From a bacterium (GTDB lineage Bacteria > Bdellovibrionota_C > UBA2361 > OMII01), in contig JAFMJG010000007.1 in assembly GCA_017853605.1 (NCBI GenBank), forward strand, positions 1 to 38,458: DNA of 38,458 bases. The letters run 5' to 3'. Below are positions 7,826 through 14,857 of this stretch, one piece after another. Within the stretch, counting starts at the first letter, position 1; the number at the start of each line of letters is the position of its first letter. Made by a program: the position numbers and the translations under genes. The notes beneath the pieces were generated by a model. The model was given only the letters and a program-made list of their open reading frames with translations, was not told the DNA's origin and did no database searches.

Positions 7826-9160
7826 ATGTTTTTCGTCCACAGGAGGGCTTCCCCGGCCTTAGAGGGGGGCACAGCGACAAAAAATTCTCCGGGTCCGGGC
7901 CTGCGCAGGTCAGAGAGCGTCAAGGGGGAGGGGCTGGTTCGCATACGGTGGGCGGCGTTCCTCGCCTACCTGTGCGTGTCTTGCGTCGTAGTGTGGCTAC
8001 TGGGGCTGCCGGCATTCCCTAGCGCAATCGTTGGAGCTCTCTCCGTTGGGGCGCTTTCCAATATCCTGCTCCTCTTCTTCGTGCGGAGGAGCGGGGCCCA
8101 GACGCGCATCTGGTGTGGGGCGGCGCTCTCGTTGGATACCGCTCTCCTTGCTGGATTGCTGTACCTGTACGGCGGATACACGAATCCCTTTAGCATGATG
8201 TTTCTCGTGTATGTGACCCTTGCGGCTTTCTTCCTCAATGCCCGCTGGACGTGGTGGATCTTCTCGCTCTCACTGTCGCTCTTTGTCGCGCTTTTCTTCT
8301 TCCACGTGCCCCTTGAGCAGCTCTCTATGCACGCGATGCACGGCTCTCAAGAGGGCTTCTCGCTGCATCTCCATGGGATGCTTATAGCCTTCGTCGTGAT
8401 CGGCTTCCTGACGTCGTTCTTTGTGGCTCGGCTCGCGCGGGATCTTGAGGAGAGATCAGAGGAGCTCGCCCGGCTGGCCGAGCGAGAGCAGGAGCAGAAG
8501 CGGCTCGCGAGCCTGGCTACTCTAACGGCGGGTGCCGCGCATGAGCTCGCGACCCCGATTGGAACGCTCACGCTGATAGCAGAGGAGCTCCAGCAGGACT
8601 TGGCCCACGAACCCCACCTGCAGGGGGAGCTGGCAGTGATGCAGCAAGAGCTGTTGCGGTGCGAAGAGGTCCTTGGCCGAATGCGCGCCCAGAGCTCCGA
8701 GCTGAGCGGCGAGGCGCCCGTTCGCGCCGCTGTATCTGAGGTCCTTGAGGGGGTGCGAGCGGCCCTTCGGGAGGGTGATGACGTTGAGTTCGGGGTAGAC
8801 GGCCCGAGCGAGGCTGCCGTGAAAACGCTCAAGGGCTCGCTCGTCTCCTCGCTGGCTGCCTTGGTGCGAAATGGCTTGCAGGCTTCGCCGAAGGGGCGCC
8901 CGGTGCGCGTCACTGCCAAGGTGCTGGGTGATGGCGTTGAGTTCGTCGTGCGAGATGAGGGCAGCGGGATGAGCCCTGAGGTGCTGTGCCGGGCGGGGGA
9001 TCCTTTCTTTACGACGAAGGAGCCGGGCAAGGGGCTTGGGCTCGGGTTGTTTCTCGTCAAGAGCTTTGCGTCCCAGGTAGGCGGGCGCTTCTCCGTGCAG
9101 TCCTCGGCGGGTTCGGGAACGAAAGCTAGCCTCTTCGTTCCCCAGGAGGTGGCCGCATGA
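7826..9160 (+). CDS. regB: RegB/PrrB-type redox-sensing histidine kinase
   Basis: A membrane sensor kinase of 444 aa. Hydrophobic helices fill about residues 40-200. Between them is GGYTNPF (116-122), matching the quinone-binding GGxxNPF signature of RegB. The phosphoacceptor box is TAGAAHELATPIGTL with His239, very close to the family's AAAHELGTPL. Cys279 in LLRCEEVLGRM matches the conserved redox-active cysteine of RegB. The ATPase domain has N349, the G1 box DEGSG (377-381) and GKGLGLGLF. The ATGA overlap with the response regulator gene shows translational coupling. RegB autophosphorylates at low redox potential and phosphorylates RegA. The first about 37 residues are poorly conserved, so the start is uncertain. 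No SenC gene lies between the pair, unlike in many alphaproteobacteria. Confidence 0.9.
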   Translation: MFFVHRRASPALEGGTATKNSPGPGLRRSESVKGEGLVRIRWAAFLAYLCVSCVVVWLLGLPAFPSAIVGALSVGALSNILLLFFVRRSGAQTRIWCGAALSLDTALLAGLLYLYGGYTNPFSMMFLVYVTLAAFFLNARWTWWIFSLSLSLFVALFFFHVPLEQLSMHAMHGSQEGFSLHLHGMLIAFVVIGFLTSFFVARLARDLEERSEELARLAEREQEQKRLASLATLTAGAAHELATPIGTLTLIAEELQQDLAHEPHLQGELAVMQQELLRCEEVLGRMRAQSSELSGEAPVRAAVSEVLEGVRAALREGDDVEFGVDGPSEAAVKTLKGSLVSSLAALVRNGLQASPKGRPVRVTAKVLGDGVEFVVRDEGSGMSPEVLCRAGDPFFTTKEPGKGLGLGLFLVKSFASQVGGRFSVQSSAGSGTKASLFVPQEVAA

Positions 9161-9687
9161 GGGCCGGACCGGGCTTCTCTAAGGTGCTTGTGTGTGACGA
9201 TGACCGGGCATTCCGGCAGCGGCTTGCGCGCTCCCTGCGCAGCGCAGGCTACACGGTATTTGAGGCGGAGGACGCGACGAGCGGGCTTGAGACCGCTCTG
9301 GAGTACCGGCCTGATGGGATTCTCGTTGACATGCGCATGCCGGGAGAGAGCGGCCTTTGGCTGCTTCCTAAACTTCGTGCATCCCTCCCGGAGAGCAGGA
9401 TCGTCGTCCTGACAGGCTTCGGAAGCATATCAACAGCGCTCGAGGCGGTTCGCCTTGGCGCGACCCACTTTGTCACGAAGCCTGCCAAGCTTGAGGCTAT
9501 CCTGGCGGCGTTCTTCCCGGAGCGCCAGGCTGCGCCGTCTCACGAAGCCCAGCTCCCCTCGCTGGCAGAGGTGGAGTCGGAGTACGTCAATCGGGTTCTC
9601 ACCGAGCACGACGGCAACGTGTCCCAAGCGGCCAAGGTGCTTGGGGTGCACCGCCGCAGCCTGCAGCGTAGGTTGCGGCGCGATTAA
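9157..9687 (+). CDS. regA: RegA/PrrA-type response regulator
   Basis: A 176-aa DNA-binding response regulator and partner of the preceding kinase (4-nt overlap). The receiver domain spans residues 8-118: acidic pocket D14-D16, phosphoacceptor D58 in LVDMRMPG, T85 and K108. A short linker leads to a Fis-type helix-turn-helix at about 140-176, where EHDGNVSQAAKVLGVHRRSL is almost the RegA signature (HDGNxSxAAxxLGxHRRxLQR). Orthologues control respiration, carbon fixation, nitrogen fixation and hydrogenase genes in response to redox. A GC-rich inverted sequence (GGGGC-AGC-GCCCC) follows the stop codon. Targets are not evident within this window. Confidence 0.93.
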   Translation: MRAGPGFSKVLVCDDDRAFRQRLARSLRSAGYTVFEAEDATSGLETALEYRPDGILVDMRMPGESGLWLLPKLRASLPESRIVVLTGFGSISTALEAVRLGATHFVTKPAKLEAILAAFFPERQAAPSHEAQLPSLAEVESEYVNRVLTEHDGNVSQAAKVLGVHRRSLQRRLRRD

Positions 9688-9912: not shown

Positions 9913-9950
9913 AGGGAAAACAACAGACCGCAAACGTAAGGGAGAACACT

Positions 9951-11327
9951 GTGAGAAGAGGAATAACAACACGTGCGCGTGCCCTGTGTGCTGCGCTTGG
10001 ACTGGCTACAGCTGTGTCTGTGGCGATAGAGGCGGGAGCGCAGGAGACCGGCTCCCCCGAGGGCCAGCTCACCACAGTATACCGTGAAACCTTCGGATTC
10101 TGCACCGACACGATCGGCGCAGCAGCGGCCCGGGAGGCCAACTGGTGGGGCTTCGTAACCGGGCAAGCAGTGATGAAGTTCAGCAACCTCAAGGTGTTCT
10201 CGTACGGCAGCCGCGCCATTGGCGGCGCGGTCAACAGCGGCCCGATCGGGCTGTCACAGGGCTACGGGTTCTGGTTCCGGCCGACGCTCGGCCTGACGGT
10301 ATTCACCCAGGAGTATCCCTTCGACGCATCATTGCTGCGCGACCCCACCACCGTGGTCGAGTTCGAGCAGCGCCTGAGCGGGATCAATGAGCTCTTAGAG
10401 CCTAACAGGTCGCACCTTGCCTTCCTGGTCGACTCGACGTGGTACATCTCTGCTGAGTCTGCCGCCCAGGCGAAGATCGTCTCGTGGGAGGCGGTGGCGA
10501 TGAAGCCAGCATCGCTGTCTTGGGGCGCGGTGCCCTCGGTCGAGGGGGTCGGCCCGGCAGCGCCGGCGGCATTCGATGCCGTGCTCCCAGATGCGGGCAC
10601 GGTGCGGGCGTTCGGAATATTTCTGGCTGAGGTGAACGGCCGGGTGCGTATCGACAACTTCTCGATTCGCTCCGAAAACCCTCCGGGAGGAGCTGCCCAG
10701 TATATGGCTGTAGAGCCGGGGATCGCCGCATGCCCAGAGGGCAGCCCCGACCGTACGGGAATGGCGACCCCGCAGCCGACCCCGAATCCGGACGAGAACG
10801 ACGGCACGCCCGATCAGGGCACGCCCGAGACCGATCCATCGCCGACACCAACACCCGCGCCGCTCACCTACTCGCTCTGTCCTGCGGCTCAGCAGGGGGG
10901 AGGAAAGCAGGTGCAGCTCTCGCGCAGCGCCCTACCGGGCATGCTCAAGCCGATCGGCAAGACCCTCGTCAAGGACCTGCGCGATCGGGCTATCTTGGCC
11001 CTGTTTGCTGGGCGAAAGATGCCGATTGGCGCGCTCGTGAATGTGCTGGTCGGTGACTATGACAGGAGTGGAGGCACCCTTGCGGTGAAGAAAAAAGGCA
11101 AGGGGGGCCCCGTCACGCTTCGGCTTACGGCATCGGCCCGCAAGGCGCTCGATACGTACCTTGCTGCCCTAGGCGCTGTCGCACCGGGGGCTCCTCTCTT
11201 CGTGAGGTCCAAGGCGCGCAGCACTGAGGTCGATTCTGCGGCCGCCGCCTGCTTGCCCGAGGTAGCGTCAATGGTCAGGCGACGGGCAAGCAAGGCGAAG
11301 ATGCCCCTCTCGTCCCTGATCTTCTGA
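9951..11327 (+). CDS. Exported protein with a tyrosine-recombinase-like C-terminal fragment
   Basis: A 458-aa exported protein. GTG 9951 is chosen because AAGGGAGA lies just upstream and a good signal peptide follows (RARALCAALGLATAVSVAI, cut after about AGA-Q). The frame is open back to 9714 without signal-like sequence. Residues of about 30-250 form a beta-rich, jelly-roll-like domain I cannot name. A Pro/Thr/Asp linker (about 265-305) follows. The last about 118 residues (341-458) align by eye with the first half of a XerC/XerD-type catalytic domain: LRDRAILALF, then GDYDRSGGTLAVKKKGKGG, and LTASARKALDTYLAALG...PGAPLF. The conserved catalytic Arg is missing, and the protein stops before the His-x-x-Arg and Tyr motifs. 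It is therefore not an active recombinase. Confidence 0.7.
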   Translation: MRRGITTRARALCAALGLATAVSVAIEAGAQETGSPEGQLTTVYRETFGFCTDTIGAAAAREANWWGFVTGQAVMKFSNLKVFSYGSRAIGGAVNSGPIGLSQGYGFWFRPTLGLTVFTQEYPFDASLLRDPTTVVEFEQRLSGINELLEPNRSHLAFLVDSTWYISAESAAQAKIVSWEAVAMKPASLSWGAVPSVEGVGPAAPAAFDAVLPDAGTVRAFGIFLAEVNGRVRIDNFSIRSENPPGGAAQYMAVEPGIAACPEGSPDRTGMATPQPTPNPDENDGTPDQGTPETDPSPTPTPAPLTYSLCPAAQQGGGKQVQLSRSALPGMLKPIGKTLVKDLRDRAILALFAGRKMPIGALVNVLVGDYDRSGGTLAVKKKGKGGPVTLRLTASARKALDTYLAALGAVAPGAPLFVRSKARSTEVDSAAAACLPEVASMVRRRASKAKMPLSSLIF

Positions 11328-13411: not shown

Positions 13412-14857
13412 ATGAAGAGATTGATTGCAACATTAGCTATTTACGCCCTCTCAAGTGGTCTCGCTGAGGCGCAGGTTCCAACCGATTTTGATGAGGACGG
13501 GATCTCTGATCTGACACAATTCTCGCTCACAGGTGACAGCCTTTTGACATGGTCAGCGGAGCTCTCCTCCACCGAGCAGGTTAGCGACCTTGGAACGTTT
13601 GGCGCAGAGGGCAGCTTTCCGGTGCTCGCCCGGTGGTCTGGTGACAAGCCCATACTAGGTGTGGTTGTGCCGAACATCGCCGCAGGGACCCTCGTCTGGC
13701 GGGCCAAGTTAGCTGACGCATCGGTTGAGAGGACCTTCGGGCGTGATGGCGACCTCGTTGTTTCGGGTGGCGACTTTAACGGGGATGGAAAGGACGATGC
13801 GGCCGTGGTCCGGCTGGTCAACGGCAAGGCGGAGTGGGAGATCTCGTACGACCTGTTCGATGCTGCCGAGGGCGCCGCAACCGTCACTTCGGTCTCATTC
13901 GGCAAGACCGGGGACCGCGTGTTCTTTGCGCGTCCTGATGGTGGCAAGGCGGATTGGGCTGGGGTGATCGGGCTCGGCCGCGCGGGCCGCTCCGTTGCCC
14001 GCATGAAGAACCTCGTTACCGGAGAGGTGAAGCAGTTCGCGCGGCTGCCGAAGTTCGCCTCAGTTGGGCTTCGGCCGCGGCCCTTTGCGGTCCCTCAGGA
14101 GGGCGCACCTGATCTCCTGGGCTTTGAGATAGCCAGCGACAGCAGCACTACGGTGAAGGTGTACTCCCTGTCGGGAAGCTTTGTGGGCTCCAAGCGATTT
14201 AAGGGCGCTGGACAGAGCCTCGTCGGGGACTTTGACGAGGCTGGGGGATACGAGGTGGCTTTTCAGGGGAAGGAGGAGAGCGCCGTTTTCAACCCCGTGT
14301 CGGGTGAGTCTTGGGACTCTGGCTACCTCGGCGGCACTGGGATTGATGAAACGAACCTCTTTACGGTGCTCTCCGCAACGCCAACACCAACTGACAACAA
14401 CAACGATGACGATTCGGGCAGCGGCGGTGGCGGAAGTGGGGGTGGCGGGGGGGGAAGCGGCGGCAGTGGGGCTCCAGCCGGCTGCACTGCAGTCGCCCCC
14501 TGGCCCAGCACGCACATCTACAAGACCGTCGGCTCAGACCACTTCACAGACATCCGCAGGAACACCATCGGGGTTATTCTCAAGGTGGGCGCCAGGGGGC
14601 CCTTCCCAGGATGCATTTCTGCCATCGACAAGAACGGCCGCTCGCTCGCTGCCCTGGGCCTTTACCAAGTTGGCGCAGGCTGGGCAGCGCGCTACTACGC
14701 GGGCGTTGGATGTGGGGCCAGCACCCCCCTCAATGGCTCAAGCGTCGCTGATGCGGCACGCCGCAGCTCCCGGAGCACCTCGATCTACCTGAAGTTCGAT
14801 CGGACATGCTACGGGCCGATAGAGGCTAACACCTGCCGAAACAGCTCCTCTTGCTAA
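13412..14857 (+). CDS. Secreted protein with FG-GAP/VCBS-like motifs and Gly-rich linker
   Basis: A 481-aa exported protein. GGGGGAG precedes ATG 13412 and a signal peptide ends about AEA-Q (20/21). DFDEDGISDLTQF (25-37), GDFNGDGKDDAAVV (about 119-132) and GDFDEAGGYEV (about 271-281) are calcium-loop motifs typical of FG-GAP or VCBS beta-propeller repeats, so an integrin-alpha-like propeller is likely. A Gly/Ser linker (about 335-355) separates it from a C-terminal Cys-containing domain of about 125 residues (SDHFTDIRRNTIGVILKVG...) that I do not recognise. It is probably cell-surface or extracellular. Like the 9951 gene, it joins an ordinary secreted module to an unusual C-terminal one. Confidence 0.75.
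   Translation: MKRLIATLAIYALSSGLAEAQVPTDFDEDGISDLTQFSLTGDSLLTWSAELSSTEQVSDLGTFGAEGSFPVLARWSGDKPILGVVVPNIAAGTLVWRAKLADASVERTFGRDGDLVVSGGDFNGDGKDDAAVVRLVNGKAEWEISYDLFDAAEGAATVTSVSFGKTGDRVFFARPDGGKADWAGVIGLGRAGRSVARMKNLVTGEVKQFARLPKFASVGLRPRPFAVPQEGAPDLLGFEIASDSSTTVKVYSLSGSFVGSKRFKGAGQSLVGDFDEAGGYEVAFQGKEESAVFNPVSGESWDSGYLGGTGIDETNLFTVLSATPTPTDNNNDDDSGSGGGGSGGGGGGSGGSGAPAGCTAVAPWPSTHIYKTVGSDHFTDIRRNTIGVILKVGARGPFPGCISAIDKNGRSLAALGLYQVGAGWAARYYAGVGCGASTPLNGSSVADAARRSSRSTSIYLKFDRTCYGPIEANTCRNSSSC

Follow-up and report, generated by a model that had tools for sequence, protein, structure and literature searches.

A predicted exported protein with a probable non-catalytic half of a tyrosine-recombinase domain as its tail

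Introduction

Can part of a DNA recombinase become a domain of an exported protein? This question is raised by a gene located in the stretch of DNA analysed here, 38,458 nucleotides of bacterial contig JAFMJG010000007.1 (referred to as the window). An initial annotation, made without database searches, had suggested that its product carries an inactive recombinase-type fold, exported behind a Pro/Thr linker. A tyrosine-recombinase fold which lost recombination and took on a new job has been reported in MrpR, an inactive recombinase that still binds DNA (PMC10516654), and previously known inactive recombinase folds are intracellular DNA-binding repressors. No exported recombinase fold was found described in the open-access literature that we searched.

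Results and discussion

The window gene encodes a predicted exported protein

The gene and the first part of its product have the following features.

9938..9944, + strand: likely ribosome-binding site AAGGGAG, 6 nt 5' of the GTG (from sequence)
9951..11327, + strand: whole gene, stop included, for a 458-aa predicted exported protein; GTG start; supported by syntenic full-length homologues
9951..10040, + strand: predicted signal peptide, aa 1-30, cleavage AGA/Q (from sequence; AxA in relatives)
10074..10736, + strand: N-terminal beta-sandwich, jelly-roll-like, aa 42-262 (AF2 model of partly low confidence; Foldseek; Cys)
10737..10868, + strand: acidic Pro/Thr/Asp-rich linker, aa 263-306 (low pLDDT; net charge -7)

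From its N-terminus, the protein thus consists of a signal peptide, a beta-sandwich (approximately 42-262), the acidic linker (263-306) and, at the C-terminal end, a further domain (307-458), which we call the tail. Its N-terminus, VRRGITTRARALCAALGLATAVSVAIEAGA followed by Q, resembles a signal peptide when read by eye, and an AxA site is aligned in all complete relatives (ALA/Q, AVA/Q, AHA/Q, ASA/T). Export of the window protein and its relatives rests on this signal-peptide reading and is inferred from sequence alone. An Rfam scan of the window returned no match, and a promoter and terminator scan at the locus gave nothing useful.

In the whole-protein AF2 model, whose confidence we read as pLDDT per ten-residue block, the beta domain scores 74-94 over residues 111-250 and below 50 at 47-57 and 74-110. 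Foldseek related this partly low-scoring model to CBM11 and lectin-like folds (E ~5e-4, TMt ~0.5). The likeness to CBM11 and other jelly-roll carbohydrate-binding or lectin domains is one of fold; in contrast to them, the window domain matches no Pfam family, and its model is in part of low confidence. It contains the invariant Cys51 (10101-10103) and Cys261 (10731-10733).

The tail resembles the first half of a tyrosine-recombinase catalytic domain

The features of the tail are given below.

10869..10925, + strand: family-specific cap at the N-terminal end of the tail, aa 307-325, without recombinase counterpart
10923..11306, + strand: aa 325-452, very likely a homologue of the first half of a tyrosine-recombinase catalytic domain (profiles, alignments, fold)
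11022..11024, + strand: Pro358 in place of catalytic Arg I (alignments)
11094..11096, + strand: Lys382, approximately where the catalytic Lys of the beta hairpin would lie (alignment; uncertain in the hairpin)
11250..11252, + strand: invariant Cys434, proposed to form a disulfide with Cys310 (alignments)

Scanned on its own, the window sequence gave no recombinase match in Pfam or PHROGs, and the signal surfaced only via NCBIfam, relatives or a profile. In NCBIfam, the C-terminal part alone matched five families, all of them Xer-type recombinases and in a single register (best 8.3e-4), while the whole window protein aligned with a genuine recombinase from genome G018 at 1.2e-6 over aa 310-453. 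We built a profile, A2, from the alignment of ten relatives' tails. Searched against PDB, it matched XerA (4a8e, 9.2e-10; 5hxy, 3.5e-7) and XerD (5dcf, 3.1e-7; 1a0p, 3.7e-7), and of the 46 genomes searched in the phylum, 30 gave matches, complete recombinases among them at up to 9e-17. PF00589 itself was matched by six of ten tail members (E up to 1; best 7.7e-7).

The predicted structure gave the same picture. The tail mostly has pLDDT 74-93 in the whole-protein model and, modelled alone, reaches pLDDT 88.7 and pTM 0.86. The top 50 PDB matches of the tail-only model were all recombinases or their inactive derivatives; XerA, XerD and Cre were matched with prob 1.00, with modest E-values (2e-4) and over the first half of the domain only. 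In a viral fold library, the best named matches were only integrases or recombinases. With XerA, XerC and XerD (PF00589; 4a8e, 5hxy, 1a0p, 5dcf), the tail shares both sequence-profile similarity and the first-half catalytic fold (the LRDRA helix, the beta hairpin and subsequent helices), at TM ~0.6 over the query and rmsd 3.2-3.7. Unlike these enzymes, it is predicted to be exported, lacks the core-binding domain, HxxR, H/W and Tyr, has mostly lost Arg I, and bears an additional cap and Cys pair.

Catalytic residues and the second half of the domain are missing

In the Arg I column, the window protein has Pro, as do five congeners; Arg stands there in G007 and G015-C73, Lys in G015-C46 and Gly in G028, so that only two of the nine tails other than the window's keep Arg. 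Most exported members have also lost the acidic residue at Arg I +3, which is near-invariant in recombinases. All exported members end where the helix preceding HxxR ends, so that HxxR, H/W and the nucleophilic Tyr are absent (two rows of this comparison, L047 and L015, run into the edge of a contig or locus). The same profile list splits cleanly into ten exported tails without HxxR and Tyr and complete recombinases having both. No remnant of the missing half could be read downstream of the window gene in the three forward frames. The helical core-binding domain expected at the N-terminal side is absent too, and the signal peptide, beta domain and linker stand in its place. A basic K or R is found approximately where the catalytic Lys should be in those genus members that have the region, with the reservation that the hairpin alignment is uncertain. 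With Pro358 at Arg I and a chain that stops before HxxR, H/W and Tyr, recombination chemistry is impossible for the window protein. Taken as one joint claim, it is very likely that the tail is a real homologue of the catalytic half-domain and is devoid of catalysis.

The nearest precedent for this loss of catalysis is MrpR. Like the tail, the prophage repressors MrpR/YopR and SroF (8a0a, 8bj6, 9rgl) are repurposed recombinase folds; MrpR was placed here by its paper; for YopR and SroF, only the fold match and the title of the entry point to this. However, they act in the cytoplasm as DNA-binding repressors and have both domains of the fold in full, and MrpR keeps Lys and Tyr, whereas the window tail is a half-domain on a predicted exported protein.

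Most of what the initial annotation had proposed was borne out. Its reading of the tail as the first half of a XerC/D catalytic domain held in both the profile search against tyrosine recombinases and the fold comparison with XerD, XerA and Cre, and the motifs it had quoted, LRDRAILALF (aa 343-352), KKKGKGG (380-386) and APLF (414-417), are present and in frame, as are GDYDRSGG (368-375) and LTASARK (392-398). The claimed absence of the catalytic Arg is true for the window protein and only partly for the family, Arg being found in G007 and G015-C73. Termination before HxxR and Tyr was confirmed in the window protein and in all exported relatives, as homologues with signal peptides share the truncation. 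An inactive recombinase-type fold behind a Pro/Thr linker is supported, with its export inferred from sequence. The proposed start of the segment at 10970 held in part: the domain is larger and begins at about 10869 (aa 307), which includes Cys310. The conserved cap and the new Cys pair had not been noticed before. A further refinement is the basic residue that persists at about the catalytic-Lys place.

The tail carries a cap, a cysteine pair and strong positive charge

The cap comprises the 19 residues preceding the recombinase-like part (YSLCPAAQQGGGKQVQLSR in the window protein). Members of the genus share it around the pattern F/LCxxxxQGxG; outside the genus, the Cys alone is kept. This Cys is the invariant Cys310 (10878-10880). 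The column of Cys434 is occupied by Ser or His in the complete recombinases compared. Every complete relative has exactly four cysteines past the signal peptide, equivalent to 51, 261, 310 and 434 in window numbering (in L011, a Cys at 255 takes the place of 261). Because there is one pair per domain, two disulfides are suggested, and a C310/C434 disulfide in the oxidising exterior is a likely inference.

The tails carry a net charge of +16 to +26 (pI 10.4-12.0), while N-terminal domains are near neutral or acidic. Mean charge per residue is 0.135 in tails versus 0.084 in matching recombinase segments (rank test, p 6e-4); it needs to be mentioned that this test ignores the relatedness of the sequences and that the recombinase segments are basic themselves.

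The tail is under purifying selection and is confined to the phylum in our searches

Apart from the window's own genome, the gene is present in seven congeners, in two of which it is cut by contig ends. Full-length relatives are 41-55% identical and have a similar neighbour order, which is largely a histidine kinase and response regulator, the tail gene, a P-type ATPase and an FG-GAP-like protein (the kinase/regulator pair is absent at L022 and L024, and L023 and L025 are cut off). More divergent tail genes occur in two other families (G015, G028). The carrying lineage is freshwater and delta-proteobacterial. The gene is missing from some congeners, among them G011, whose genome is 97% complete. 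Genomes that have it usually carry a single copy, namely one in the genus and up to two overall. A scan of genome contigs with the single sequence found none, and with the alignment it found eight loci; the full profile, run against 383 genomes mostly outside the phylum, revealed no member beyond the phylum at 1e-15.

Within the genus, the tail is under purifying selection (pN 0.13 and pS 0.89 for the closest pair), and it changes faster than the N-terminal domain, with 36-44% identity to the window protein as compared with 48-62%. A pseudogene reading of the window gene was rejected on the basis of the intact frame, syntenic relatives, conserved cysteines and low pN versus pS. In a tree of tails and recombinases, eight exported tails grouped together and two G015 tails fell near the recombinase base. 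A single origin of exported tails is possible, neither rejected (AU p 0.42) nor proven, as bootstrap support is low and only 14% of bootstrap trees show it.

Other architectures and loci that carry the tail

In G015, an exported glucose/sorbosone dehydrogenase (GSDH) with two PKD domains ends in the half-recombinase tail (L058 2148-5216, - strand). As an in-frame TAA occurs shortly past the first Cys and before most of the tail, this example may be broken or mis-assembled; a nonsense mutation, recoding and an assembly error all remain possible. Conversely, in G033 the N-terminal jelly-roll-like domain lies on an 847-aa frame with TSP3-like repeats and without the recombinase tail (L061 3423-5963, + strand).

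An exported pectate-lyase-like protein, named from sequence reading, adjoins all three carrier loci outside the genus.

L058 5401-7419, + strand: pectate-lyase-like protein
L059 3874-5661, - strand: pectate-lyase-like protein
L060 2-790, - strand: pectate-lyase-like protein

The two complete ones have very basic, Cys-containing ends (+19 and +35), and the one scanned against Pfam gave no match. Tandem pectate-lyase-like copies are present in the genus. At two of the three loci that carry the tail outside the genus, a flippase, an O-antigen-ligase-like protein or sugar transferases also lie nearby, names which again come from sequence reading, without family matches.

A captured half-domain as a binding or retention module

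The explanation that we favour, with a confidence only slightly above even, is that of a captured non-catalytic half-domain serving as a polyanion binding or retention module. Homology, truncation, the missing catalytic residues, conservation, the Cys pairs and the charge are demonstrated by the data; the export route, the disulfide, the ligand and the role are inferred. In this scenario, a piece of an ancestral recombinase gene would have been captured behind an exported protein, lost catalytic Arg I together with everything from HxxR to Tyr, gained the short cap and the C310/C434 pair (probably a disulfide) and turned more basic; at the C-terminus, the half-recombinase would now be a folded module for binding or retention. 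The jelly roll may bind a glycan (by analogy of fold, with no binding data), the acidic linker would space it from the half-recombinase, and the latter would hold the protein on a polyanion of the cell surface or matrix, be it an acidic exopolysaccharide, lipopolysaccharide or extracellular DNA. The module reading is supported by the tail on GSDH-PKD-PKD in G015 and the N-terminal domain without it in G033, the polyanion reading by the strong positive charge and by polysaccharide-assembly genes beside two of the three carrier loci outside the genus. The usual single copy per genome, weak for a general retention tag, speaks against this reading, as do the congeners without the gene, the possibly broken GSDH example and the basic character of the recombinase segments themselves.

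A possible alternative is specific binding of extracellular DNA, in which the half-domain keeps the ancestral DNA-facing surface, for matrix or uptake, and the jelly roll sits on polysaccharide. Basic residues are kept or gained, one of them near the catalytic-Lys position, and inactive recombinases such as MrpR retain DNA binding (PMC10516654). However, the tail lacks half of the DNA-clasping domain and all of the core-binding domain, Arg I is lost in most members, and the neighbourhoods that we examined contained no identified competence genes.

It is unlikely that the tail is a sorting signal, i.e. a C-terminal secretion or anchoring domain for a dedicated export machine, comparable to type IX or PEP-CTERM. 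Like those tails, it follows a linker at the C-terminus of exported proteins, and it does so on more than one architecture. On the other hand, its fold and ancestry are different, it occurs in one or two copies per genome (one in the genus), and no type IX or PEP-CTERM sorting-tail family in Pfam or NCBIfam was matched at E up to 10.

We regard as very unlikely a decaying fusion, in which an accidentally joined recombinase fragment drifts without function. The faster evolution of the tail and the internal stop in the G015-C46 copy would fit it, but the intact frame in three families, the common end point, invariant Cys310 and Cys434, purifying selection and the lack of a downstream remnant of the missing half all oppose it. 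Finally, chance or convergent likeness of an unrelated alpha/beta fold, to which the missing Pfam match and the modest Foldseek E-value might point, is all but excluded by the consistent register across several independent methods and by almost every informative match being a recombinase, and is ruled out in practice by the family profile matching PDB recombinases (9e-10 to 4e-7).

Returning to the captured half-domain, half of a catalytic domain appears to have been turned into a stable exported module. A bolder wording, towards which we lean only slightly, is that this is the first described tyrosine-recombinase fold outside the cytoplasm: halved, probably disulfide-stapled, and shuffled as a C-terminal module of exported polysaccharide-associated proteins. 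If true, the N-terminal half of the catalytic domain can fold alone when it has a cap, and the exported proteome can draw on fragments of mobile-element enzymes. For annotation, weak integrase matches on signal-peptide proteins may reflect true homology without recombination.

Neighbouring genes in the window

Directly upstream lies a two-component pair (7826-9687, + strand), syntenic in several congeners and consisting of a PilS-like 6TM kinase (Pfam, just below the cut-off) and a response regulator with a Fis-type HTH; whether this pair regulates the tail locus is no more than a possibility. Downstream, the exported FG-GAP-like neighbour (13412-14857, + strand), which the initial annotation had credited with an odd C-terminus, ends in a Cys-rich module (approximately aa 361-481). 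That claim gained some support, the C-terminus being a separate module: it recurs at 65% identity on an exported, otherwise different frame of 250 aa in G015 (C54, L106), as a second case of a shuffled C-terminal module.
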